A DNA stretch of 64,000 bases from a virus. The position numbers were made by a program, and so were the translations under genes. The notes beneath the pieces were generated by a model. The model was not told the origin of the DNA and made no database searches. It worked only from the letters and a program-made list of their open reading frames with translations. The stretch spans positions 1-64,000 of IMG/VR virus record IMGVR_UViG_3300021957_004962. One strand, 5' to 3'. How positions within the stretch are numbered: the stretch's first letter is position 1; the number at the start of each line of letters is the position of its first letter. Of this stretch, positions 10,293 to 60,068 are shown piece by piece.

Positions 10293-10682
10293 TTATGCTA
10301 GGTCTAGTATAACTGATACGCCAGCTTCAGCGGCACTGAGGTTCCACTGTACTTTTGTTTTTGATGCAAACTGTGTTCCTGAATCTGCTACTACTGTGCA
10401 AGTTCTACCAGAAATTTTACTTACAAAGTAAGTTCCGTTCACACTATCTTTACATTTGATAACCATTTCACCAGTAGCAGCTGGTACATCCGTTACTAGT
10501 TTGCAAATTTGGTCTGGTTGATCGACCCCAGACAGCGCAGTTGCTACTAGAAAACGCTTACTACCTTTTTGCTTGATTATATGAGCATTACCAAATAGTT
10601 GGGTAGTGTATGCGGCTGGTGCAATTTGGGCACCAGCGTCTGCTCGTGCGCCGAAATTTCTCTTGTTTAGTGGTCTTCCCAT
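10293..10682 (-). CDS. Probable virion structural protein, MGRPLNKR family (copy 1)
   Basis: 129 aa starting MGRPLNKRNFGARADAG, with later HIIKQKGSKRFLV and KISGRTCTV. A paralogue lies directly upstream (10793-11164). I know MGRPLNKR proteins as small, abundant virion-type proteins of T4-like marine phages. Rich in small residues and beta structure. Good SD (AAGGAGAAAA). It has its own late promoter and intrinsic terminator, fitting high late expression. Confidence 0.7.
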   Translation of the reverse strand: MGRPLNKRNFGARADAGAQIAPAAYTTQLFGNAHIIKQKGSKRFLVATALSGVDQPDQICKLVTDVPAATGEMVIKCKDSVNGTYFVSKISGRTCTVVADSGTQFASKTKVQWNLSAAEAGVSVILDLA

Positions 10683-10792
10683 TTGTTTTCTCCTTAAAAA
10701 GAAGTCCTATGCGAGTTCTAGTCGCTACGCTGTGGGTACAGCATAAGTCCTCTCATGAGTACTATTGGACATACGTATTTATGCTGCCTTAA
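10683..10792 (-). promoter_or_regulatory. Late promoter and leader, duplicated cassette copy 1
   Basis: A late promoter (CATAAATA at 10776-10783) is followed by a leader of about 85 nt with a hairpin-forming segment. The leader is nearly identical to the one upstream of the paralogue (11165-11264), so the gene and its control region were duplicated together. Confidence 0.7.
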
Positions 10793-11164
10793 TTATAGAA
10801 AGTCGATTACAACACTTTCATTAACCACGGCGCCAATTTTGTTCCAAGGAACTTTATCGCCTTGAGCAAATTGTGTACCTGTCTGTGGTTTAACTGTACA
10901 TGTTCTACCTGAGATTTTAGTAACATCATAAGTACCTGCTGCACTGTCTGTTACGTTAATTCTCACTTCGCCTACGCCTGGTGCGCCTGCTCCTAATGAA
11001 CAAACTGCTTCACTTCCGCCTACATCACATAGAAAACGCTTGCTGCCTGTTTGCTTTACAATATGACCTGCGCTTGCGCCAGCACCTACGTCTGCTGTTA
11101 CCCTGATCTGGAACCCATCATTACCTGGATTGCCAAAGTGTCTTTTGTTTAGTGGTCTTCCCAT
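10793..11164 (-). CDS. Probable virion structural protein, MGRPLNKR family (copy 2)
   Basis: 123 aa, MGRPLNKRHFGNPGNDG. It is a paralogue of the 10293-10682 protein, with shared HIVKQTGSKRFLC, GTYDVTKISGRTCTV and GTQFAQGDKVPWN. No enzyme motif. Strong SD, own late promoter. Confidence 0.7.
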   Translation of the reverse strand: MGRPLNKRHFGNPGNDGFQIRVTADVGAGASAGHIVKQTGSKRFLCDVGGSEAVCSLGAGAPGVGEVRINVTDSAAGTYDVTKISGRTCTVKPQTGTQFAQGDKVPWNKIGAVVNESVVIDFL

Positions 11165-11264
11165 TTGTTTTCTCCTTAAAAAGAAGTCCTACGCCCGTTC
11201 TATGGGCTACGCTGTGGTGCAGCATAAGTCCTCTCATGAGTACTATTGGACACACGTATTTAGT
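11165..11264 (-). promoter_or_regulatory. Late promoter and leader, duplicated cassette copy 2
   Basis: ACTAAATA at 11257-11264 plus a leader that matches the 10683-10792 leader nearly base for base, except a changed but still self-complementary loop region. Confidence 0.7.
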
Positions 11265-15188: not shown

Positions 15189-15864
15189 ACAGTTCATTTA
15201 TTAGAACACATTTTTTGGTTGATGTTATGTGTTTCTTAAACATCAGATGCAATGTGGCAACATCATCATATTCTTTTAAAAATATAGTACCAGTGTTAGT
15301 ATAAGGATCGTGCATTGTCTTGTGCCTAATAGACCGCTTCATAATATGATTCATCTGATAATTATTTGCGTCAAATGTTTCATCAACAAACTCAAAAATT
15401 TCAGACAGTATGTCGAGTGGTTGTCTACCATGTCTAGTAAAGCTAACCTTATATCTAAATTTATTATACCAAAGTTCTTTTTTTGTTACCAAGTCTAAAT
15501 TATCAATCATAAGCTCTTGATGTTTTTGGTTAATAGGCCCTTGTATTTGCAATATATCTTCACCCCAACGATCTACTAATTTAGATATTAAATTATGTTC
15601 AGTCAGATATACAAAAAACTTTCTGTCTCGCCTAACCTTCCAACGTTCATATCCTAATTGATTTTTTAAAAGTGAGTTGATGTCCATATTACGTATCATA
15701 CAAGTTCTCCATGCATTCTCATGCTCTAGATCTTTATAAAATCCACGTCTAAAGAACTCTGGTTGCCAAAACTGAATACGCCAAGGAAACTTTTTATAAT
15801 ATATTCCAGTAGCATAGGTAAATTCTGGTAAATTTTTAATTTGTTGTAATGTTAATACTGCCAT
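15187..15864 (-). CDS. Conserved hypothetical phage protein
   Basis: 225 aa, rich in aromatic and basic residues (FPWRIQFWQPEFFRRG, ERWKVRRDRKFFVY). No signal peptide or enzyme motif. Starts inside the 3' end of clpA (overlap 29 nt). No family recognised. Confidence 0.65.
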   Translation of the reverse strand: MAVLTLQQIKNLPEFTYATGIYYKKFPWRIQFWQPEFFRRGFYKDLEHENAWRTCMIRNMDINSLLKNQLGYERWKVRRDRKFFVYLTEHNLISKLVDRWGEDILQIQGPINQKHQELMIDNLDLVTKKELWYNKFRYKVSFTRHGRQPLDILSEIFEFVDETFDANNYQMNHIMKRSIRHKTMHDPYTNTGTIFLKEYDDVATLHLMFKKHITSTKKCVLINEL

Positions 15865-18079
15865 CTAATATTTCCAGTGTTACTGTTTTAATGTCACTAC
15901 CAAATAATAATTCTTTAGCAAGCGGTTTTTTGATTTGTTGATTAATGACACGTGCCATCGGCCTTGCGCCCATTGTTTCACTGAATCCATTGTCAGTTAG
16001 CCATTCAATTACTTTATCATCATATAATAGTACAATCTCCCGTGGAGTTAACATTGCTTCTAGTTCAGTAATAAACTTAACTGTAACATTTTTCATCAAT
16101 GTTCTGTCTAATTTTTTAAATTGCACAATTGCATCAAGTCTATTTCTAAACTCTGGACTAAAGAAACTTTTAACTGCCTCACCTGCTGCTGACTCATTTT
16201 TTCCAGCACCAAAGCCAATTAAGTTCTTTTCGCTATCAGCAGCACCTAAATTACTTGTAAGTATAATAATACAATTTCTAGCACTGACTGTTTTGCCGTC
16301 ACTTGATGTAACCATTCCATTATCCATTAGTTGTAACAATACGTTACTAACGTCTGGATGAGCCTTTTCAATCTCATCTAATAGTAAAATACTATTTGGA
16401 TTTTCTTCTAGTTTATTAATTAACAGACCACTACCTGAACCGCCTTCACTAAATCCAACGTAGCCTGGAGGACTGCCGATAAGTTTTGATACTGTATGTC
16501 TTTCTTGATATTCACTCATATCAAAACGTAATAATTCCATTCCCATGGTATTACTGAGCTGCTTTGCTGTTTCTGTTTTACCAACACCCGTTGGTCCACT
16601 AAACAAGTAACTGCCAATTGGTTTATCTTCTGCTTTAAGACCTGCTTTCGCAATGTAAATACTATCAGCTAACTTAGTGATAGCTTCTGATTGGCCAAAC
16701 ACTTTAAGATTTAATTGCTTTTCAATATCTACAGGCTTTTCTTTTTTGTACTCACTATCTTTGGTTAATACTAATTGGTCAATTGGTATCCTTGTTAGTT
16801 TAGCAACCTCAAATCTAATTTCATCTAAGTCAATAATACTCTTACGATCGTCTTTGGGAAGTAACCGTTGACGAGCCGCCGCACTATCAATTACATCAAA
16901 TGCTTTATCTGGAAGAAATTTATTATGCCAATATTGTGCAGTTAAGTCTACTGCACCATCAAGTGCGTTCTTAGTAAATGCAATCTCGTGGTGTGCTTCA
17001 TATGGATATATGCTGTTATTAATTATACGCTTTGCATCTGCCACACTTGGCTCAGGTACGTCTACTTTGTGAAATCTACGTACAAGTGCCTTATCTTTTT
17101 CAAAATGTTGGCGGTATTCATCATAGGTTGTACTACCAAGACAACGCAACTTTCCTTTTTGTAGTGCTGGCTTTAACATATTAGCAACATCCATTGCACC
17201 GGATCCACTATTGCCTGCTCCCATAATCATATGTATTTCATCAATAAACAAAATAGCATCGTCTCTTTTTTCTAATACATCTAGTACTTCTTTAAGTCGG
17301 TCTTCAAAGTCTCCTCTAAATTTAGTACCAGCTAATAAAGCACTTAAATCTAAACTATAAACAATATGTCCTTGTATTAGATCAGGAACACTTCCTTCAT
17401 TGATTAAATAAGCAAGTCCTTCGGCAATGGCAGTTTTGCCAACACCACTATCACCAACAAGCACAACATTATTCTTTTTACGACGAGCAAGGGTCTGTAC
17501 TGTTTCGGCTAATTCTTCTTCTCTACCAACAATAGCATCTATTTTACCACTAGCTGCTGATTCATTTAAATTTTCACAAAATTTACGTAATATCTTGTCA
17601 GCTTTTGTAATTGTTGGTGATGAATCTTGATTAATATTTTGCTCTCGAATACGATTAATATCCTGAAGATAGTTACTAACTGCATCTCTGTCAATACCGT
17701 ATTTTTGTAAAATAAAAGCACTTGGCGTTTGTTGCTCTGATAAAATACTAATCAGTAAATCTCTGGGGTCTAAGTTATTACGGCCATTGAACAATGCTTG
17801 CGTAAATGCTCTATGGAATACTCGCTCCAACATGACAGTCTTTTTGGGTTCTTGTTCTGTAGCATCTGGATAACTATCAACTGAATCTGCTAAATGATCG
17901 TATACTTCTCTGCTTATATCAGATGGATCTACACTAAAATCAGAAACAATATCCTTCACTTCATCTAAATCAAGAATAATAGCTAGTAAATGCTCAATAG
18001 TTACATAGTGGTGACGGTAATCTTTACTCAACATAAATGTCTTGTTTACGATTTTTTCAATCTTATCTTCATTAGACAA
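15836..18079 (-). CDS. clpA: ClpA-like AAA+ unfoldase
   Basis: 747 aa, near the 750-760 aa of bacterial ClpA. It has a Clp N-domain (residues 1-150), AAA-1 with GDSGVGKT Walker A and FIDEIHMI Walker B, and AAA-2 with GPTGVGKT and LLDEIEKAH plus the C-terminal lid. The loop NLIGFGAG precedes SFFSPEFRNRLD, where ClpA carries its IGL/IGF ClpP-docking loop, so it could feed host ClpP. No ClpP gene in the window. Starts at TTG with AGGAG 8 nt upstream. It may degrade tmRNA-tagged or host proteins. Confidence 0.92.
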   Translation of the reverse strand: MSNEDKIEKIVNKTFMLSKDYRHHYVTIEHLLAIILDLDEVKDIVSDFSVDPSDISREVYDHLADSVDSYPDATEQEPKKTVMLERVFHRAFTQALFNGRNNLDPRDLLISILSEQQTPSAFILQKYGIDRDAVSNYLQDINRIREQNINQDSSPTITKADKILRKFCENLNESAASGKIDAIVGREEELAETVQTLARRKKNNVVLVGDSGVGKTAIAEGLAYLINEGSVPDLIQGHIVYSLDLSALLAGTKFRGDFEDRLKEVLDVLEKRDDAILFIDEIHMIMGAGNSGSGAMDVANMLKPALQKGKLRCLGSTTYDEYRQHFEKDKALVRRFHKVDVPEPSVADAKRIINNSIYPYEAHHEIAFTKNALDGAVDLTAQYWHNKFLPDKAFDVIDSAAARQRLLPKDDRKSIIDLDEIRFEVAKLTRIPIDQLVLTKDSEYKKEKPVDIEKQLNLKVFGQSEAITKLADSIYIAKAGLKAEDKPIGSYLFSGPTGVGKTETAKQLSNTMGMELLRFDMSEYQERHTVSKLIGSPPGYVGFSEGGSGSGLLINKLEENPNSILLLDEIEKAHPDVSNVLLQLMDNGMVTSSDGKTVSARNCIIILTSNLGAADSEKNLIGFGAGKNESAAGEAVKSFFSPEFRNRLDAIVQFKKLDRTLMKNVTVKFITELEAMLTPREIVLLYDDKVIEWLTDNGFSETMGARPMARVINQQIKKPLAKELLFGSDIKTVTLEILDGSINITTN

Positions 18080-41804: not shown

Positions 41805-42998
41805 TTACTCCTTAATTAATTCTTCTAATATTTCTAAACATGCACTGCTATTATCAGGCGCACCTTCGTTAATAGCCATTTTAACACATTCTCTAGTAAA
41901 GTCTAATGGAAAACGTACACCGTCTCTATCCATGCCTGTATTAATCAAATACACATTACAGTCGTTGGCATGTACTTTTTGTATTAATAAATCACTATAC
42001 TCTTTTACTGCTCTTGGCATAAATGGCGAACCATAGCAAGGTGAGAACAAAGGTTTAATTTCATCTGTTCCTGCTTCTGTACCTGGCATTTGACTGGTAT
42101 ATCCTGTTTCAAAGAAACGTCTAATAGTTCCGTTTGTAATTTTACTTACTGGTGGAAATACACCTTTAGCATCCATTGTTAAAAAGAAAATATTAGTTGG
42201 ATGGTCGAACATTTTTGATGTGTGATATGCATTTTCTACACAGTCAATTGGATAACTTAGTCTAGCATTTGACACACCTGGGTTTTCTACAACCAATGTA
42301 TCACGTTCACGGGCAAGTTCTACTGCATTAAAAATAGTTGGATGCGTTTCTGGTGTAAGGCCTTCTGACTTTGCATAGCATCCTGTTTCAATCATTTGAA
42401 TGCCGTCTTGTTCCCATGCAACTTCGTCATCACTAATAAGCTGATAATCAGGATCACTACTAAGTGTTGTTTTGCCTGTGCCACTAAGTCCAAACATTAA
42501 GTTTGTTGTATCATTGTAGGTAAATGCACTACAATGCATAGGAAGTGAGCCACTGTCGGGTAACATAAAACTAATAATACCAAACACACCTTTTTTAATC
42601 TCACCTAAGAAAGTAGTGCCTGCAATAAGCATCACTTGTTCATTTAAGTGTACATGTATCTTGGGCTCAGTAACTACTAGGTCTGTGTTATGTAGTATTG
42701 TCCAGTCAGCTGTGTGTTCTAATCCGTTTTCCTCTACAGTAAACATGTTGCGTACAAACTGTGCATGTCTGTCATCATTTGTTTCTACTCTAAAGCATAT
42801 TCCACATGTATAAAACACAAGATTATGATTATATTCTAGTTCATACATTTCGTTATGAAAGTCTTTGAAGTCTTGTTCTTTACCAATTTTATTATACTTA
42901 GGCCTCGACATGTCTAAGTATTTTGTTTTATGTCCAAAGAAGTATTTGTTCTCAGGACTGCGACCAGTTGGACTGGTGGTTATGCTAATGTTGGTCAT
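41805..42998 (-). CDS. pckA: ATP-type phosphoenolpyruvate carboxykinase (short form)
   Basis: 397 aa against 520-540 for bacterial PckA. Oxaloacetate + ATP gives PEP + CO2. Kept: TGRSPENKYFF (substrate Arg), GEIKKGVFG (catalytic Lys), MHCSA (metal His), kinase-1a GLSGTGKTTLS, kinase-2 LISDDEVAW, NARLSYPI and FSPCYGSPF. Much of the usual N-terminal domain and part of the C-terminus are missing, and the usual GTERG reads GTEAG. Probably active but unproven. Confidence 0.88.
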   Translation of the reverse strand: MTNISITTSPTGRSPENKYFFGHKTKYLDMSRPKYNKIGKEQDFKDFHNEMYELEYNHNLVFYTCGICFRVETNDDRHAQFVRNMFTVEENGLEHTADWTILHNTDLVVTEPKIHVHLNEQVMLIAGTTFLGEIKKGVFGIISFMLPDSGSLPMHCSAFTYNDTTNLMFGLSGTGKTTLSSDPDYQLISDDEVAWEQDGIQMIETGCYAKSEGLTPETHPTIFNAVELARERDTLVVENPGVSNARLSYPIDCVENAYHTSKMFDHPTNIFFLTMDAKGVFPPVSKITNGTIRRFFETGYTSQMPGTEAGTDEIKPLFSPCYGSPFMPRAVKEYSDLLIQKVHANDCNVYLINTGMDRDGVRFPLDFTRECVKMAINEGAPDNSSACLEILEELIKE

Positions 42999-43423
42999 TA
43001 TTCCTCATCTAATGATATTTCTAAAGTTTCGATGCTTCCGTCATCGAATTCAATTTCGACATACTTTGTTCCGTCTTGTCTAGTTCTAGTAATTTTACTT
43101 ACGGGTTCTGGAATATTTTCTTGTTCAAATTCTTCATCTAAATCAGGCATAGTTGGTGTTTCTACTTCTGGTTCAGGCTGTGGGGTAGTCTTTTGTACAA
43201 TTGGCTTTGTATCACTAATGGGTTGTTGTTGCGGTGGCTCTACCATATTTTGATGAGCTACTGCAATATCTTCTACTTTAACTTTAACACTACCGTCATT
43301 ATTAAGACGGTCACCACGAGCATTCATAAGAACATTACTCACTGCTCTAGTTTGTTCATGCTTCATAGCCATACTAGCCATGTCAATAATTCTGCCACGG
43401 GCTGTTTTAACTCCTCTACTCAT
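42998..43423 (-). CDS. Conserved T4-like phage protein
   Basis: 141 aa. VKTARGRIIDMASMAMKHEQ and SNVLMNARGDRLNNDG are conserved in marine T4-like phages. A Pro/Gln/Glu linker and a C-terminal EIEFDDGSIETLEI strand pair follow. Possibly virion- or transcription-related; unknown. ATGA and TAATG overlaps on both sides. Confidence 0.7.
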   Translation of the reverse strand: MSRGVKTARGRIIDMASMAMKHEQTRAVSNVLMNARGDRLNNDGSVKVKVEDIAVAHQNMVEPPQQQPISDTKPIVQKTTPQPEPEVETPTMPDLDEEFEQENIPEPVSKITRTRQDGTKYVEIEFDDGSIETLEISLDEE

Positions 43424-43929
43424 CTTAAAAACTCCTTATAGTCTAAATCGTATTTAATACTATCAACTTTATGTACACCAATTAAATACAAGATATAGCT
43501 TGAAACGCTACTTCCTCTGCCAACACCCCACAAGATATTGTTACTTTTTAATTCAGCTACCATATATACTAGAAACTTTAGTACAGGAAACATATCACGC
43601 TTTTTAAATTCTTCAAGTTCCTCAACGCATCTGTCATAATTTTCTCTAGGACTTAGTCCTAGTATATAATCCACGATGTTTAGTTGTTTAAATTCTTCTG
43701 GTATCCACCAATTGTCAGCATTTTTATAACTATACTTATCCTCACCATTTCTACTAGGATTAGATACTTCAATTTCATCACCAAATTTAAATAAGGTACT
43801 AAAATGATTAAATTGGTCAATAATTTCAGGGTTATAAGTTATAACCTTTTCAAAGGTTTTTCCTTCTAGCATTGCTTCCACTAGATCATTTTCCTTAACA
43901 ACAATTTCATTATAGTTATTCAATTTCAT
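43420..43929 (-). CDS. Mini DNA polymerase III alpha-like protein
   Basis: 169 aa. The C-terminal part, ILWGVGRGSSVSSYILYLIG then VHKVDSIKYDLDYKEFLR, closely matches the bacterial DnaE segment G-R-G-S-A...YLLGI..VDP..YDL.FERFL just before the palm. The polymerase catalytic aspartates are absent because the protein ends there. Similar stand-alone fragments exist in marine T4-like phages. Could bind the clamp or replisome. Confidence 0.7.
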   Translation of the reverse strand: MKLNNYNEIVVKENDLVEAMLEGKTFEKVITYNPEIIDQFNHFSTLFKFGDEIEVSNPSRNGEDKYSYKNADNWWIPEEFKQLNIVDYILGLSPRENYDRCVEELEEFKKRDMFPVLKFLVYMVAELKSNNILWGVGRGSSVSSYILYLIGVHKVDSIKYDLDYKEFLR

Positions 43930-44162
43930 CCTATATTTAACACATCTTCATCAGGGTCTTTACCATCGTCTTGTGCTTTGCGTAAATCATCACTTGCTAA
44001 TTCAGATCTCATATGTATCTGCAAATAATCTATCATATTCTGAATTTGATCTACAACATCCTGTGACATACCAGTCTGGTATGCTATACTATGTTTTTTT
44101 CGAAGTTCTAATAATTTCTCTGTTAGTTGATCTTGTGACATTCCTGTATAATCTGTAAACAT
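43926..44162 (-). CDS. Small helical conserved protein
   Basis: 78 aa from the ATG at 44162 (a GTG 15 nt upstream is possible). DQLTEKLLELRKKHSIAYQT and VVDQIQNMIDYLQIHMRSEL give two helices with an acidic tail. ATGA with the next gene. Function unknown. Confidence 0.6.
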   Translation of the reverse strand: MFTDYTGMSQDQLTEKLLELRKKHSIAYQTGMSQDVVDQIQNMIDYLQIHMRSELASDDLRKAQDDGKDPDEDVLNIG

Positions 44163-44192
44163 GTTTAAATATAACACTATGACATAAATTTG

Positions 44193-44939
44193 TCAAGTAT
44201 CATCCTTTCGTATGCTATTGTTATAGTTGATTGCTTCTTGTAAGATAGATAAATTATATCCATTCTTTTTAGCTGTAGTTACTAAAGCAAATGTATCTTT
44301 AGGAAAACAATGTCCACCAAATCCACGTTCTGATGTTACTTGTGTATGGCTTTTGCCAATTCTTTCATCTGCTCCAATATATTCTGATACTATTTTATAA
44401 TCAATATTAGTTACTTTACACAAATCAGATATCTGATTAAAGAATGCAACTTTAGTTGCTAAGAAACTGTTGCGGAAGTATTTTATAAGAATAAGCTCTT
44501 CAGGTTTAAAAATATTAACGTTAACATCCATGGCACCTGTAAACAGGTTTGCCCAAAACGTAACATCGTCACCACCCATCATTATTTCTTTAGTATTTGC
44601 GAAATCTTGTAATGCAGTATCTGCACGAAGAAATTCTGGACTAAATGTAAAATTGTTGTTTGGAAACATATGTTTTAGTGTTTGCCAACCTTCTAAACTA
44701 ATTGTACTTTTAATCAGTATTGGAACATTAGGTGCAAGTCTAACCACATCATATACATTGTCCATATGACAGCCGCCATGTGAACCTTGTGGTGTACTCA
44801 CACATATAATTACTGCATCAGGTTGATTAAAATTCTTATACTTTAATGCTGGGTCATATATTTCAATATCATGGTGAGATTTTAAAACATTATGGTGTGC
44901 TTTACCAACAAATCCATAACCTGCTATTCCAATTTTCAT
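44193..44939 (-). CDS. UDP-glucose/GDP-mannose dehydrogenase family, short form
   Basis: 248 aa against 390-450 for the family. Rossmann start KIGIAGYGFVGKAHH, then ICVSTPQG, FSPEFLRADTALQD, and the catalytic Cys in GFGGHCFPKDT. The C-terminal UDP-binding domain is absent. Would oxidise a nucleotide sugar to a uronic acid, perhaps for surface glycans. Strong promoter at 44969. Confidence 0.8.
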   Translation of the reverse strand: MKIGIAGYGFVGKAHHNVLKSHHDIEIYDPALKYKNFNQPDAVIICVSTPQGSHGGCHMDNVYDVVRLAPNVPILIKSTISLEGWQTLKHMFPNNNFTFSPEFLRADTALQDFANTKEIMMGGDDVTFWANLFTGAMDVNVNIFKPEELILIKYFRNSFLATKVAFFNQISDLCKVTNIDYKIVSEYIGADERIGKSHTQVTSERGFGGHCFPKDTFALVTTAKKNGYNLSILQEAINYNNSIRKDDT

Positions 44940-44968
44940 TCATATTCCTACTAGTATTAACAACTTTT

Positions 44969-44996
44969 ATTATACGCTATAATAACCGTAAGTCAA
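44969..44996 (-). promoter_or_regulatory. Sigma70-type promoter
   Basis: TTGACT, 16-bp spacer, TATAAT (consensus -10). Drives the sugar-nucleotide dehydrogenase and probably the following genes. Confidence 0.7.
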
Positions 44997-44998
44997 GA

Positions 44999-45025
44999 AA
45001 AAAGGCCCTATTAAAGAGCCTTTTT
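44999..45025 (-). terminator. Intrinsic terminator
   Basis: AAAGGCTCT-TTAAT-AGGGCCTTTTTT on the minus strand, after the transporter gene and just before the next promoter. Confidence 0.8.
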
Positions 45026-45041
45026 AGTCTATGTTTATTAA

Positions 45042-46013
45042 TTATAATCCGTTAGGTACAATAATATAATGGATCATCAGCACTAGTGCAACACTTGCAC
45101 CTAGGCCTACCATCATCTTACCAAAGTCCTTTGCTACCAATGGGAATACAGACTTAGTTTTCTTCTTACCAAAGTATGTCGCCATAGCCAACTCACGTCC
45201 TGCTAACAAGCCTACAAACACCCAAGTAGTACTCATAGGAATGTCATTCAACTCTTTGAAGAAGTAAAGACACAACCAATAGAACAAGTCAATCAATGTT
45301 GCTGATCGAACATATCTTGTGTTATGTTTTTCTAAAACAATCTGTTGAATCTTACCACCACGCTCTCTGAACATAAAGAATAGACCAGCAACAAATACTA
45401 CGCTGATCATTAACATTAGATCAACTGGAATGACTCTTGGAAGGAACACAGCTATGTTAGCCATATCATGTGACAACCAAGTCCACCATAAGCCACCTGT
45501 GGCTACCCATTGTGCGATGCGCCAGAACTTCTTATTGCTTTCAGTGACTGGAGCAGTTTCATCATACCAGCGTCCAAAGTACTTGTGTATTGCAAACCAT
45601 ACTACATATGCAAAACCCGCCGCAACGCCGTAGCCCATGATTGATTTCATCAGCATCTTCTCTAGTACAAAGGTACTTGCGAATACACTTAGCACCAAGA
45701 AACTTGTGCTAACTGGTACACCCATCCTTGTAAGTGCTACAAGAATAGCAGGTGCGGCTGCGTGATACCATTGTACTTCTTGCCACGGTATTTTGTTTAG
45801 TCTTCCGTAACTGATGTCCCCACCATTTACTGTCCAACCGTACCATAAGGTTGCAAGTAACACTGCACTTGCGGCTCCCCATAATACTTTGTAGTTGAAT
45901 CGCTCATTGTTTGATGCCATCCAAGTACCGAGCGTTTGTACTGAATCGTTTGCTATAACTGCATAGGCAGCTAATAAGAAGCCAAGTAGGCTCCATAAAG
46001 TGAGTGCGTCCAT
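45042..46013 (-). CDS. PiT-family inorganic phosphate transporter
   Basis: 323 aa, about nine membrane helices. Repeat signatures VIANDSVQTLGTWM near the N-terminus and WLSHDMANIAVFLPR in the second half, plus GVPVSTSFLVLS and IPMSTTWVFVGLLAGRE. Would import phosphate (with Na+ or H+) across the inner membrane, useful in phosphate-poor seawater. SD AAAGGAG. A GACGG..CCGTC leader hairpin precedes it. Confidence 0.87.
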   Translation of the reverse strand: MDALTLWSLLGFLLAAYAVIANDSVQTLGTWMASNNERFNYKVLWGAASAVLLATLWYGWTVNGGDISYGRLNKIPWQEVQWYHAAAPAILVALTRMGVPVSTSFLVLSVFASTFVLEKMLMKSIMGYGVAAGFAYVVWFAIHKYFGRWYDETAPVTESNKKFWRIAQWVATGGLWWTWLSHDMANIAVFLPRVIPVDLMLMISVVFVAGLFFMFRERGGKIQQIVLEKHNTRYVRSATLIDLFYWLCLYFFKELNDIPMSTTWVFVGLLAGRELAMATYFGKKKTKSVFPLVAKDFGKMMVGLGASVALVLMIHYIIVPNGL

Positions 46014-46029
46014 AATAATCTCCTTTGCT

Positions 46030-46046
46030 TGACGGCTTTACCCCGT
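46030..46046 (-). promoter_or_regulatory. Leader hairpin of the PiT gene
   Basis: GACGGGGTAAAGCCGTC forms a 5-bp GC stem just upstream of the SD of the phosphate transporter. Could be regulatory or protective. Confidence 0.4.
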
Positions 46047-46087
46047 CGCTCACAAATATAATACTTTTGTATTACAAAAATTATTTA

Positions 46088-46444
46088 TTACTCAACAAAC
46101 TGTGCTAGTTGTGGTGCTTTCCAACCTTCTGGCTTTAGTACTTTTCCGTCTTCACGTTTGCGTACTTTGCCTGTGTCTGGATCAATCTTAGCAAAGTTTG
46201 TGTCCATTACTTCTTTCCAGGCCGCTTCGCCATCCCAACCTGCGGCACGAATAGCACCCATAGTAACAACAAGAATATCAATTAGTGCATCTAGTTGTTC
46301 TACTTTATCATTTGCAGCAACAGCTTCTAATAGCTCATCCATTTCTTCATCTACAAGACTTAGATACATCTTGTAATTTGCTTCACTGGGTGGTTGGTCA
46401 CATGCTGTGCCAAATGTTTCAATATCTTTAAATGGGTTTGTCAT
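46088..46444 (-). CDS. MazG-like nucleotide pyrophosphohydrolase
   Basis: 118 aa. LVDEEMDELLEA (E-x-x-E-x-x-E) and LDALIDILVV (D-x-x-D) give the metal site of all-alpha NTP pyrophosphatases; the tail GWKAPQLAQFVE is typical of the phage sub-family. Hydrolyses (d)NTPs or related nucleotides; in marine phages it is thought to modulate host nucleotide or alarmone state. Confidence 0.85.
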   Translation of the reverse strand: MTNPFKDIETFGTACDQPPSEANYKMYLSLVDEEMDELLEAVAANDKVEQLDALIDILVVTMGAIRAAGWDGEAAWKEVMDTNFAKIDPDTGKVRKREDGKVLKPEGWKAPQLAQFVE

Positions 46445-47155
46445 TTATATTCTTTCTTTTAAATTATCTAGCCACCATTGACTAGTTGGTGTTAATGGAT
46501 TTTTTTCTTTCTCATATATTTCAGATGGAGTACTAATACTTGTACATATTTCATCTATTTTAACATCACCAAATCCTGGGGTTGTTATTAATGTAATGCC
46601 ACAATTACGTTCGTCTGTTCCGTATGGATAGTCGCTAATATCATAACTTCCATTATTATGTATGCGTAGATCTGCAATAAATTCTCTACATCCATCTATT
46701 ACTGCGGTATCATGAAATACTATTATACCTTGTGGATTCATATGCGTCCATACATTAAAGAAATCATTTTTAATTCCTTCATAACTATGACAGCCATCTA
46801 TAAATGCAAAATCAATACCAAGTGTAAAACGACTAGTAAGTTCTTTCCTAAATGTGTCTTGATCTTTTTGTGTGTCTAATTTGACAAGTGAATAACGATC
46901 TCCAATATGTTTTAATTTTTCATCGACGTGTTCAAATGATCCCATTTGTGAAAATTGACCACTTACGCCATGTGTATCCCAAATATCAAATCCTGTATAC
47001 CAAGATTCAATATCTGTATCTTGTGTGTTTTCATTTAATGCACTGTATATTGCATTAGCCATACGTCCTTCAGCAACTCCTATTTCTATTGCTATTCTAG
47101 GACGTTGTAGTTTAATTAAGCCGTGTATAAAAGACCATTCTTGTTTAGTACTCAT
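46445..47155 (-). CDS. Class I SAM-dependent methyltransferase (Methyltransf_24 type)
   Basis: 236 aa. IAIEIGVAEGRMANAIYS (SAM-binding motif I), VKLDTQKDQDT, then FAFIDGCHSYEGIKNDFFNV and MNPQGIIVFHDTAV. This set is typical of sugar or small-molecule methyltransferases in phages. Substrate unknown. Overlaps the next gene by ATGA. Confidence 0.78.
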   Translation of the reverse strand: MSTKQEWSFIHGLIKLQRPRIAIEIGVAEGRMANAIYSALNENTQDTDIESWYTGFDIWDTHGVSGQFSQMGSFEHVDEKLKHIGDRYSLVKLDTQKDQDTFRKELTSRFTLGIDFAFIDGCHSYEGIKNDFFNVWTHMNPQGIIVFHDTAVIDGCREFIADLRIHNNGSYDISDYPYGTDERNCGITLITTPGFGDVKIDEICTSISTPSEIYEKEKNPLTPTSQWWLDNLKERI

Positions 47156-47433
47156 TTTACTTCTAAATCTATAAACTGCCCTTGAGTTTCTCCTGGGCTT
47201 ACAGTTTTACCGCTTCGGTCGTAGCGAGTAGCAGCTTGATCTCTTAGTTGTTGAATCTCTAACATTCGTTCTTCAACTTTCCTAGTTTGATCTAATTTTA
47301 GATCTGCTCGTGTAGCTGCTTCTATAACTCGAATACGTTCTTTTTCCATCGGCGGTTTAATGTGTTCGCTGTTAGGATATACATTAGGGTGTCCGTATTG
47401 ACTTGCTTGTATCGCTTGTTTAATTTCAGTCAT
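47152..47433 (-). CDS. Small coiled-coil protein
   Basis: 93 aa from the ATG at 47433 (AAGGAAA upstream); an earlier ATG overlaps the aldolase stop. ERIRVIEAATRADLKLDQTR and KVEERMLEIQQLRDQAATRY form a helix. Function unknown. Confidence 0.6.
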   Translation of the reverse strand: MTEIKQAIQASQYGHPNVYPNSEHIKPPMEKERIRVIEAATRADLKLDQTRKVEERMLEIQQLRDQAATRYDRSGKTVSPGETQGQFIDLEVK

Positions 47434-47446
47434 ACATGATTTCCTT

Positions 47447-48310
47447 TTAACTTTCATTTCCTGAATTCGCTGCTTTATAAATATTGGTTATATTTTTTGT
47501 AATAGCAACATCAAAATATTCTTCGCTGTCAGTATAATAAAGATGTTCACTAAGTGCTCTACTAAAACTTGCTGTCATATTGCTATTTTTTGAAAGTCTC
47601 TCACATGCTTCTTTATTATCGTATCCGCCAGATAACCCTACTAGTTTGTGTACTTTAGGAGACTTGGATGTATGTAAATACTGGTTAGACTCTTCAGGAA
47701 GTGTTAATTTAAGAATACACATTCCAGTATACTTTTCTAAAAATGCTCTAAGTCTAGCGTCTAATAATTTTTCTAATAGATCTTTTTTTGGATGATCAAT
47801 TGGAATTTCAGGTTCAATAATTGGCATTAGTCCTGCCTTGTAGATAGTAGTAGCAAGTGTAAATTGTTGCTCTAACACCTTATCCAATATTTCTGTAGTT
47901 TTTACAATACTACGCATCTTTGTTCCAATGCATCCATAGTTTTTAGCATATGAAATCATCTGTTTTACTGGAAACTGTTTAAGTGTTCCGTCTTCATTGC
48001 ATCCACTATCTATTTTAAGATATGTTTTAATACCCTTTCTTTCTAGTACGTTAACAATTCCCCGATCAACACTATCTTTATATACAATAGCCGCCTGAAT
48101 GTAACTACTATTAAAATTATGATTGTTAATCATGCGCAATCTCATATCATGCACAAGATCCATTTTATTTTCTTCAGTATATTCTTGTCCGTAGCGTTCT
48201 AGTACGCCACCTGTTGAACCACCACTGTGATCCATTGCTGCGATAAATGTCATATCTTTCCATTTACTCCTATGTTTATTCATTGATGATAAATGTCTAC
48301 CCACTGCCAT
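47447..48310 (-). CDS. Class I fructose-bisphosphate aldolase
   Basis: 287 aa, near the 296 aa of the short bacterial class I enzyme. AAMDHSGGSTGGVLERYG (fda-type N-terminal motif), YLKIDSGCNEDG, GCIGTKMRS, IEPEIPI, the Schiff-base Lys region CILKLTLPEE, and SFSRALSEHL. Joins DHAP and GAP to fructose-1,6-bisphosphate, reversible. Start directly follows the purS stop. Confidence 0.88.
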   Translation of the reverse strand: MAVGRHLSSMNKHRSKWKDMTFIAAMDHSGGSTGGVLERYGQEYTEENKMDLVHDMRLRMINNHNFNSSYIQAAIVYKDSVDRGIVNVLERKGIKTYLKIDSGCNEDGTLKQFPVKQMISYAKNYGCIGTKMRSIVKTTEILDKVLEQQFTLATTIYKAGLMPIIEPEIPIDHPKKDLLEKLLDARLRAFLEKYTGMCILKLTLPEESNQYLHTSKSPKVHKLVGLSGGYDNKEACERLSKNSNMTASFSRALSEHLYYTDSEEYFDVAITKNITNIYKAANSGNES

Positions 48311-48673
48311 CTAATTGTTTTCCGTTATTTCACTAACTTCATAGTCTTCCATTACTTCGTTAGTTTGACTTTCAGCAATTGCACAAGCCTGTTCTAGACT
48401 GTCTGCATTGTATTCTAATATCTTTCCAATACGTACACTGTTTACTTCTGGAAATCCTAAATATTTTAGTGCATGGGTAACAGCATTTCCTGCATTATCT
48501 AGTATACCCAATTTTAATGTTATTACTGCTTTGTACATATTTGGTAACCTAACTTGCCTACAATCTTCTTTCTCTAAGCCGTATACTGTTCCATGACAGC
48601 CGGCGCATCGTACTGAAAATGCGCTACTAGGTAACTCCATTACAAGTTCTCTGTTGCGACATATGCAGTTCAT
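48311..48673 (-). CDS. purS: PurS-like protein with Cys-rich N-terminal extension
   Basis: 120 aa. Residues 46-118 match PurS (about 80 aa): YKAVITLKLGILDNAGNAV, LKYLGFPEVNSVRIGKILEY and EVMEDYEV. PurS bridges PurL and PurQ in FGAM synthetase (purine step 4). Residues 1-45 add a Cys-rich segment (MNCICRNRE, then VRCAGCHGTVYG) that looks like a zinc ribbon and is not part of normal PurS. Start supported by ATGA overlap with GAPDH and no SD before the internal Met. Confidence 0.78.
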   Translation of the reverse strand: MNCICRNRELVMELPSSAFSVRCAGCHGTVYGLEKEDCRQVRLPNMYKAVITLKLGILDNAGNAVTHALKYLGFPEVNSVRIGKILEYNADSLEQACAIAESQTNEVMEDYEVSEITENN

Positions 48674-49635
48674 AGTTTAGCTATATGTGCGGCATTATCA
48701 GCCATGCGACATGAAAACCCCCATTCATTATCATACCATCCTAACACACGAACCATCCTTTTGTCTACTACTTTTGTTTGGTCGGCTGCAACAATACAGC
48801 TTTCACTAGTATGGTTATAATCTATACTAACTAATGGTGCAATTTCATATCCAAGTACTCCGTTCATATCATTCACACTTGCATTGTATAAAGCCGTATT
48901 AATATCATCAACTGAAGTATCTGTATCACTTTCAAAAGTAAAATCAACACAACTTACATTTGCGGTTGGTACTCTAATTGCACTGCCTGTTAATTTTCCT
49001 TCTAATTCGGGAATAATTAATCCTATGTTTTTTGTTGCACCTGTGCTGGTGGGTATCATACTCATGCCTGCTGTTCTAGCACGATAGGGATCTTTATGTC
49101 GTCGGTCAACTGTACTTTGGTCACCAGTGTAACTGTGTACTGTTGTCATTATTCCCCTTTTAATCCCAAACTCTTGATGCAATATCTTTGCCATTGGCCC
49201 AAGACAATTTGTTGTGCAACTTGCATTGCTGATAATTTTGTCACTACTGGTGGCTTCTTCATGGTTAACTCCATATACAATTGTTTTGTCTACATTCTTA
49301 GCAGGCGCACTAATAAGAACTTTCTTTGCTCCGTTCTCAATGTGTACTTTTGATACTTCTCCATCGTTAAATGCGCCTGTACATTCCAGTACAACATCAA
49401 CACCGGACCAATCTATCATTTCTATGTCCCTAGTATGACTCCATTTTAGCTTGTCGCTTAGTTGTCCGGCCCAACGACCGTGAATACTATCGTAATGTAA
49501 CAAATGGATATTAGATTCAACATCACCACTTGCGTTTATTTTTACTAGAGTCAGATCATCTCTCTCGTCAAGTATATGACGAGCTACGCACCGACCTATT
49601 CTTCCAAATCCATTAATGCCTACTTTAACTGTCAT
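48670..49635 (-). CDS. gapA: Glyceraldehyde-3-phosphate dehydrogenase
   Basis: 321 aa (typical 330-335). NAD(P)-binding VKVGINGFGRIGRCV, catalytic Cys in SNASCTTNCLGP, catalytic His in TTVHSYTGDQ, phosphate-site STGATKNIGL, and end WYDNEWGFSCRMAD. Interconverts GAP and 1,3-bisphosphoglycerate. All key residues seen. Overlaps PRPP synthetase and purS by 4 nt each. Confidence 0.93.
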   Translation of the reverse strand: MTVKVGINGFGRIGRCVARHILDERDDLTLVKINASGDVESNIHLLHYDSIHGRWAGQLSDKLKWSHTRDIEMIDWSGVDVVLECTGAFNDGEVSKVHIENGAKKVLISAPAKNVDKTIVYGVNHEEATSSDKIISNASCTTNCLGPMAKILHQEFGIKRGIMTTVHSYTGDQSTVDRRHKDPYRARTAGMSMIPTSTGATKNIGLIIPELEGKLTGSAIRVPTANVSCVDFTFESDTDTSVDDINTALYNASVNDMNGVLGYEIAPLVSIDYNHTSESCIVAADQTKVVDKRMVRVLGWYDNEWGFSCRMADNAAHIAKL

Positions 49636-50564
49636 TGAAATAGACTTGAGACTGATTCTTCATTAGTGATGCGTCTAATAGCTTCACCAAATAGTTTGCT
49701 TACTGTTACAGTTCTAATCTTTTTGGTTTTTCCAGTATATTGAATTGTATCACTAATAACAAGTTCTTCCAATACACTTTTTTGAATCTTTTCACTAGCT
49801 GTACCACTTAACACCCCATGTGTAATATAAGCACGAACACTTAATGCACCTGCATCTATAATTGCTTGAGCTGCATTACATAACGTTCCTCCGCTGTCTA
49901 CGATATCATCTACTAAAATTGCGTGTTTGTTTTTTACCTCCCCAATTAAATTCATTACTTCAGATTTTCCTGCTTCTGGACGAACCTTGTCTACGATAGC
50001 AATATCACCAGCAAATGTATCAGCAAATTTACGAGCTCTCACAACACCACCTGCGTCTGGAGATACAAATACTGTCCCTTCACTTACATTAATATGTTGT
50101 TCAATGTCTTTAGCAAATACTACACGGCTTGTTAAATCATCTACTGGAATATCAAAAAATCCTTGTATCTGTCCTGCATGTAGATCCATTGTAAGGACTC
50201 TATCTGCACCTGCTGTTGTTAGTAAATCTGCTACTAGTTTTGCAGTAATAGGTGTACGACTTGCACTTTTACGATCTTGTCTCGCATAACCAAAATAAGG
50301 AATAACTGCGGTAATTCTTTTTGCACTTGATCGTTTTGCAGTGTCTATCATAATTAATAATTCCATTAAGTTATCATTAACTGGAGTACAAGTGCTTTGA
50401 ATTAAAAATAAATCTTTTCCACGGATATTTTCAAGTACTTCTGTACATATTTCTCCGTCTGCAAATTGTTTAATATTGGATGGTACCAAATCGGTAAAAC
50501 AGTGGGTGGCTACATTAGTAGCAAAAGGTAAATTACTATTACCGCTCAAGATTTTTACAGTCAT
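49632..50564 (-). CDS. prs: Ribose-phosphate pyrophosphokinase (PRPP synthetase)
   Basis: 310 aa, full length. VIPYFGYARQDRKSASRTPI (ATP/flexible loop), TMDLHAGQIQGFF, SPDAGGVVRARKFA, and PRPP-binding ILVDDIVDSGGTL. Makes PRPP from ribose-5-phosphate and ATP for purine, pyrimidine and NAD synthesis. AGAGGAAA upstream. Confidence 0.93.
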   Translation of the reverse strand: MTVKILSGNSNLPFATNVATHCFTDLVPSNIKQFADGEICTEVLENIRGKDLFLIQSTCTPVNDNLMELLIMIDTAKRSSAKRITAVIPYFGYARQDRKSASRTPITAKLVADLLTTAGADRVLTMDLHAGQIQGFFDIPVDDLTSRVVFAKDIEQHINVSEGTVFVSPDAGGVVRARKFADTFAGDIAIVDKVRPEAGKSEVMNLIGEVKNKHAILVDDIVDSGGTLCNAAQAIIDAGALSVRAYITHGVLSGTASEKIQKSVLEELVISDTIQYTGKTKKIRTVTVSKLFGEAIRRITNEESVSSLFQ

Positions 50565-59599: not shown

Positions 59600-59766
59600 A
59601 GAGTGGCACTTCTGTTGCTAGGCAGTACCCGCCCCCACATACCCTTAGGCTGCTAATGCCATTTCTGGCGCTCTATTTGCGTTTGCATTTAGAAATGTTG
59701 ACCAATAACGCAGTCATCCGGTAAACTCCACTTCACTACCACACCTGTCGATCCTATTTCATCCCC
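59600..59766 (-). ncRNA. ssrA: tmRNA coding piece (5' part)
   Basis: Mature 5' end predicted at 59766: GGGGATGAAATAGGATCGAC, then AGG, matching the tmRNA start (acceptor strand plus the GGAxxCGAC D-arm region). The tag frame at 59645-59686 is followed by a G-rich hairpin region that can close helix P5. The 3' end near 59600 is approximate. Confidence 0.85.
59645..59686 (-). other. tmRNA tag reading frame (ANANRAPEMALAA)
   Basis: Resume codon GCA at 59686-59684, 13 codons and stop TAA. With the charged alanine the added tag reads A-ANANRAPEMALAA. The ending ALAA is the form recognised by ClpX/ClpA degradation systems. The preceding sequence is A/T-rich, as usual before a resume codon. Confidence 0.82.
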
Positions 59767-59767
59767 A

Positions 59768-59956
59768 TCATAAAGACACTGAATCTAAAGGTTTACAGAT
59801 ATATTCAACTGTATCCCAATGTCCGTCCGCTGGCATTTCTGTATATTCTACAAGCATAGTTTTACACTGTGCTTTAGTTTCAAACTGTTGTACATCTTGT
59901 TCTAAGCAGGTTGTGCCAGAACAAACTGTTAATAGTATGTGCCAGATAATTTCCAT
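59768..59956 (-). CDS. 62-aa Cys-rich protein inside the tmRNA intervening segment
   Basis: MEIIWHILLTVCSGTTCLEQ at the start (hydrophobic, signal-like), then Cys at 31 and 54. The ATG is 15 nt after the acceptor CCA (AAGGA between) and the TGA ends 1 nt before the mature 5' G of the coding piece. The layout resembles small secreted-type cyanophage proteins and the 56-aa protein at 33217. Codon use matches neighbours. Function unknown; it could be translated from the tmRNA precursor. Confidence 0.6.
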   Translation of the reverse strand: MEIIWHILLTVCSGTTCLEQDVQQFETKAQCKTMLVEYTEMPADGHWDTVEYICKPLDSVSL

Positions 59957-59970
59957 TCTCAATGTCCTTA

Positions 59971-60030
59971 TGGTGGAGATGCGCGGTACTGCCCCGCGGT
60001 CCAGTATGCGTTCACGTTGCTTCAACGTTT
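59971..60030 (-). ncRNA. ssrA: tmRNA acceptor piece (3' part)
   Basis: Ends at 59971 in CATCTCCACCA with encoded CCA. The T-arm is a 5-bp stem CGCGG/CCGCG with a 7-nt loop GGCAGTA. The loop differs from the usual TTCAANT and fits my memory of alphaproteobacterial two-piece tmRNAs. The 5' end is about 7 nt after the promoter. Confidence 0.85.
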
Positions 60031-60039
60031 ACAATATTA

Positions 60040-60068
60040 TTTATAACAGTAGTATATAACGATGTCAA
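60040..60068 (-). promoter_or_regulatory. Sigma70-type promoter of the tmRNA gene
   Basis: TTGACA, 17-bp spacer, TATAAA. The expected transcription start (about 60033) fits the acceptor piece. Confidence 0.7.

Follow-up and report, generated by a model that had tools for sequence, protein, structure and literature searches.

The tmRNA is an RNA that rescues stalled ribosomes. A permuted, two-piece form of this RNA is described for Alphaproteobacteria (Rfam models RF01849 and RF04321), and its two pieces are separated in the gene by an intervening segment (IVS) that is removed on maturation. Two-piece tmRNAs are also known from phages, notably from phage Melnitz (PMC9004378). The current tmRNA database paper (PMC11915505) describes endonuclease genes within group I introns of tmRNA and one tRNA-Ala inside a permuted tmRNA IVS, in a single, nominally archaeal case, and the passages covered here mention no protein-coding gene in such an IVS. 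The open literature likewise yielded no report of a protein gene in a permuted tmRNA IVS, in agreement with an earlier, sequence-only reading of the locus analyzed here, which knew of no phage tmRNA with an internal protein gene; subscription papers lay mostly outside this search, so the absence is no proof.

The window analyzed in this study is a stretch of 64,000 nucleotides of a marine phage, from the IMG/VR virus record IMGVR_UViG_3300021957_004962. In the whole record of 107,580 bases, a tmRNA of this kind and the open reading frame (ORF) described below each occur once. The Rfam models, ARAGORN, and direct reading identified a permuted tmRNA of the alphaproteobacterial type on the minus strand of the window, at 60032-59600. 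Both covariance models scored well above their cut-offs: tmRNA_permuted (RF04321) gave 109.8 bits (gathering threshold 47) over 60032-59645, and alpha_tmRNA (RF01849) gave 106.4 bits (gathering threshold 50) over 60083-59600, while ARAGORN called the locus a permuted tmRNA. The acceptor piece (59971-60032, delimited with both models and ARAGORN) is located upstream of the coding piece (59600-59766, delimited with Rfam and ARAGORN; its 3′ end is approximate). The former contains a T arm with a 5-bp T stem, followed by CATCTCC and ACCA (59981-59971), so that the CCA is encoded and ends at 59971. CATCTCC pairs with GGGGATG at 59766-59760 to form an acceptor stem that includes the alanine identity pair G3-U70, and the first base of GGGGATG (G1, 59766) is the mature 5′ end of the tmRNA. 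The coding piece contains the start GGATCGAC and a tag reading frame, ANANRAPEMALAA, which occupies 59686-59645 with its stop codon and has a hydrophobic end (ARAGORN and direct translation). The sequence-only reading had recognized a two-piece tmRNA from the stem, G3-U70, CCA, T arm, start, and tag; every one of these elements is present, and the covariance models bear the identification out.

Between the CCA end and G1 is an IVS of 204 nt (59767-59970, minus strand), which is nearly filled by a 62-codon ORF, MEIIWHILLTVCSGTTCLEQDVQQFETKAQCKTMLVEYTEMPADGHWDTVEYICKPLDSVSL (59771-59956). Its ATG is located 15 nt after the CCA (14 nt between), and its UGA stop codon (59768-59770) ends 1 nt before G1, with a single U between them, as had been claimed from the sequence. 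A 62-codon ATG ORF was longer than that in every dinucleotide shuffle of homologous IVSs (0/500 and 0/200). A first scan of IMG/VR identified at least 60 loci with relatives of this ORF, and in at least about 20 of them, the window included, the ORF is inside a permuted tmRNA. A profile scan raised the number of relatives to at least 338; among the best of these, the ORF was nested in a tmRNA IVS at 30 of 79 readable loci and lay outside any tmRNA IVS at 49. The nested sets from the two scans overlap. In the first set, all nested copies have 62 codons and a start codon 13–18 nt past the CCA, and each terminates in UGA-U-G1. The dN/dS among nested copies (Nei-Gojobori) was about 0.05–0.57; the upper part of this range reflects distant pairs, for which dS is noisy in so short a gene (62 codons). 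Four cysteines (C12, C17, C31, and C54) are invariant across the relatives, including those outside a tmRNA, and AlphaFold2 produced a confident beta-beta-alpha-beta model of the protein (mean pLDDT 89.7). Judging from these comparisons, the ORF is a real protein gene under purifying selection, and the earlier expectation that homologous phage loci would conserve the frame as protein held; the start, length, and stop register are also the same. The protein matched no known family in Pfam or PHROGs, and a fold search with the model gave no significant match; the best PDB entry (8g9s_A, E 0.24) is a lead only. All nested cases of this family, here called MEIIW, are metagenomic contigs, many of them independent, and no isolated phage with a nested copy was found. 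Outside the tmRNA, which is beyond what the sequence-only reading had covered, the ORF is often tightly wedged between tRNA-Thr(tgt) and tRNA-Leu(tag), and in some tRNA-flanked copies the 5′ end of the tRNA abuts the stop codon or overlaps its last base.

The first 8–9 nt of the IVS pair with the 8–9 nt that precede its terminal UGAU. Compared with shuffled partners, this pairing gave a z value of 24 in 127 phage IVSs without an ORF and 7.2 in 23 phage IVSs with one, and bacterial permuted tmRNAs also have the stem (z = 10.9 in 53 IVSs); these values are inflated by kinship among the sequences, and adjacent registers give no comparable signal. Two-sided changes are numerous, e.g., UAAACACA/UGUGUUUA and UAAUUACUU/AAGUAAUUA. 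The consensus lines of RF04321 and RF01849 do not contain this stem and leave the segment unpaired. In the window, covariation and the predicted fold place the 5′ strand, UAAGGACAU, at 59962-59970, where it holds the Shine-Dalgarno sequence AAGGA (59969-59965). The 3′ strand, placed by the same evidence and by the relatives at 59771-59779, consists of the last three codons of the ORF, GUG UCU UUA (VSL), and the contents of both strands are as described in the MEIIW family. The acceptor stem and the 9-bp IVS stem both have a predicted pair probability near 1; in the minimum-energy structure the helix reaches 14 bp and covers parts of both the CCA and the stop codon. Because their last codons form the 3′ strand, the nested proteins end in S[VM]SL in 30 of 30 cases, compared with 2 of 49 non-nested relatives (among the best 79 of at least 338). 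The terminal UGAU is conserved in phage IVSs with an ORF and mostly also in those without, and it is this conserved end that supplies the stop codon of the ORF.

To avoid selecting loci by their ORFs, we surveyed IVSs by scanning with tmRNA motifs: two sequence motifs were used for IMG/VR and the first motif only for a set of bacterial genomes. An IVS of 60 nt or more was defined as long, and an IVS was defined as ORF-filled when at least 70% of it was covered by an ATG ORF of 25 codons or more. The motif finder requires a fully paired acceptor stem, so the pairing of acceptors is independent covariation only where a locus was identified by its ORF; variants that the finder overlooked, such as CAGGTCC acceptors, were brought in by a looser test. 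The survey frequencies are those of samples, among the matches listed. Among these matches, the median IVS length was 83–85 nt in phages and 30 nt in bacteria, and of 103 phage clusters with a long IVS, 21 were filled by an ORF in the sense direction compared with 1 in antisense. The lengths of sense and antisense ORFs in phage IVSs differed accordingly (Wilcoxon p = 3e-8). Only 5 of the 82 bacterial IVSs among the matches listed reached 60 nt, and none was ORF-filled. In 240 alphaproteobacterial genomes, 3 of 150 listed tmRNA matches spanned at least 300 nt, compared with 388 in the window, and both of those that could be parsed among these three lacked a filling ORF.

The ORFs in phage IVSs belong to at least six unrelated families, among them MEIIW (the window), MKNPL, MYYVM, KITKENT, MDREIW, and MAKYRRKG, which likewise extends the sequence-only reading. 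Among the matches listed, the MKNPL family was nested at 64 of 80 loci (57 by the strict test and 7 by a looser, downstream-only test) and the MYYVM family at 6 of 26. In families other than MEIIW, dN/dS was 0.02–0.40 where pairs exist; three of these families were sought in isolated phages, and none was found there. The IVS of phage tmRNAs is thus a recurrent cargo slot for small protein genes.

A consensus-like promoter, consisting of TTGACA (60068-60063), a 17-nt spacer, and TATAAA (60045-60040), was read directly from the minus strand just upstream of the acceptor piece. Of 224 phage permuted tmRNAs, 134 have the sequence TATAAATA no more than 170 nt upstream of their CCA end, mostly at 74–78 nt, compared with 17 that have it on the opposite strand. 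The 14 nt between the CCA and the AUG leave no room for a separate ORF promoter, so the ORF would most simply be read from the tmRNA precursor. Based on the promoter position and this lack of space, we infer that a single precursor is both mRNA and tmRNA.

Starting from the tmRNA, the purifying selection on the ORF, its fixed register, the covarying stem, and the recurrence, all of which the sequence comparisons establish, we consider it likely that the locus is a dual-output phage gene, i.e., a permuted tmRNA that carries a small protein gene as cargo in its excised loop. The promoter directly upstream of the acceptor piece would give one precursor transcript, in which the Shine-Dalgarno sequence would be made nearly 200 nt ahead of its pairing partner; because it would emerge well before this partner, ribosomes could already translate the 62-codon ORF while the RNA is still being made. 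With the 3′ strand in place, the IVS-closing and acceptor stems would form a nearly continuous helix that masks the Shine-Dalgarno sequence and the stop-codon region, and RNase P together with 3′ processing would then free the two tmRNA pieces, with the ORF message discarded or inactivated. A shared transcript, this order of events, and a mutual exclusion of the two outputs are what the arrangement suggests, and translation and processing of the precursor would probably compete. We advance only tentatively, and with more doubt than belief, the stronger proposal of a switch in which one helix opens for the phage protein and closes for the tmRNA, the mutually exclusive products are coupled to ribosome traffic, and marine phages use the slot for many different small proteins. 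The Shine-Dalgarno sequence lies within the stem in the MEIIW family and in one other (MAKYRRKG) and outside the stem in several other IVS ORF families, and mutual exclusion therefore cannot account for the arrangement in general.

Against a dual-output gene, compaction of the genome could be enough to account for a small ORF flanked by two processing sites, because the same ORF family is also found tightly packed between ordinary tRNA genes. A related explanation is that the IVS is a safe, transcribed slot, comparable to an inter-tRNA gap, which ORFs enter by recombination and in which no regulatory coupling exists. This explanation, to which we assign a real but minor chance, remains a serious rival because the hiding of the Shine-Dalgarno sequence is not a general rule. 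It accords with the MEIIW copies between tRNA-Thr and tRNA-Leu in other phages, with the unrelated ORFs in the IVSs of other phages, and with the repeated gain or loss of the nested state (five changes on a protein tree that is poorly resolved with 62 columns, at least three of them forced by supported branches). However, it predicts neither the location of the MEIIW Shine-Dalgarno sequence and last codons inside a covarying stem nor the invariant 62-codon register.

Alternatively, the excised IVS RNA could itself be the message, a mini-mRNA left by RNase P that ends one nucleotide after the UGA; slight 3′ trimming would deprive it of its stop codon, and the tmRNA from the same precursor would then tag its product. 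Nested copies have their stop codon 1 nt away from the predicted RNase P site, and the tRNA 5′ ends that overlap or abut the stop codon in some tRNA-flanked copies point in the same direction; we nevertheless consider a mini-mRNA improbable, because the excised RNA is predicted to keep its Shine-Dalgarno sequence hidden in the stem and the register is explained by the UGAU end, which is conserved in IVSs without an ORF too. It is very unlikely that the tmRNA is a pseudogene or a decoy and that only the nested ORF is of importance. Although a form of the phage DS6A tmRNA without a tag is reported to inhibit endogenous tmRNA (cited in PMC11915505), the acceptor stem here is kept paired despite sequence changes among the loci found by the ORF, and the relatives keep tag frames with ALAA or similar ends. 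Constraint at the RNA level could explain conservation at the ends of the ORF, but the notion of a chance or decaying frame retained by such constraint, with no working protein gene, is scarcely credible given that the same protein, with its invariant cysteines, is encoded by relatives outside the tmRNA, that dN/dS is well below 1, and that the AlphaFold2 fold is confident.

Several other features of the window were recorded. Two copies of the freshwater-2 RNA motif (Rfam) are located on the minus strand (10680-10762 and 11162-11243, with 71.7 and 66.4 bits, respectively); each ends in AAGGAGAAAACAAATG, which is likely to be a ribosome-binding site with its start codon. Genes of central carbon metabolism are clustered on the minus strand at 41805-50564: PEP carboxykinase (41805-42998), class I aldolase (47447-48310, a weak match below the Pfam cut-off), GAPDH (48670-49635), and PRPP synthetase (49632-50564). 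A phage-encoded ClpA/ClpB-like AAA protein is located at 15836-18079, also on the minus strand. Elsewhere, in roseophages DSS3_MAL1 and MD18, the IVS of the permuted tmRNA contains an apparent tRNA-like sequence that includes a T-arm-like hairpin (about 1105-1205 of the retrieved sequence).

Permuted genes that carry a protein gene in the removed loop add a form to the tmRNA genes, and the survey shows the ORF-bearing loop to be a slot that recurs across marine phages and no mere curiosity. This may be why marine phages commonly have two-piece tmRNA. The locus also offers a testable case of one RNA acting as message and as ribosome-rescue RNA. Small phage proteins of this kind may go unannotated because the tmRNA feature covers them.

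The locus shares with the alphaproteobacterial permuted tmRNAs (RF01849 and RF04321) the order of the pieces, the G3-U70 acceptor, CCA, T arm, tag, and IVS-closing stem, and differs from them in its 204-nt IVS with a conserved ORF, whereas the bacterial IVSs have a median of 30 nt and no filling ORF. The Melnitz tmRNA (PMC9004378) is also phage-encoded, of the alphaproteobacterial type, and preceded by TATAAATA; however, its relative of the window ORF lies outside the IVS, with its end about 100 nt upstream of the tmRNA CCA, and its IVS contains an unannotated frame of another family that continues into the tmRNA coding piece. This frame of the isolated OM43 phage (MFKWLSK...IPKYLSG; tmRNA at 285-737 of the retrieved sequence) resembles the IVS ORF of another locus (L438). 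A tmRNA group I intron with an endonuclease gene does not fit the locus, where the break is at the acceptor end and the ORF has no Pfam or PHROG match. According to PMC11915505, group I introns with homing endonuclease genes also place a protein ORF inside a removed segment of tmRNA, but they sit in the T loop and self-splice, whereas the segment in the window is the permutation loop. The tRNA-Ala case in the same source is likewise a foreign gene in an IVS, but it is an RNA gene, whereas the IVSs described here carry protein genes, in many phages.
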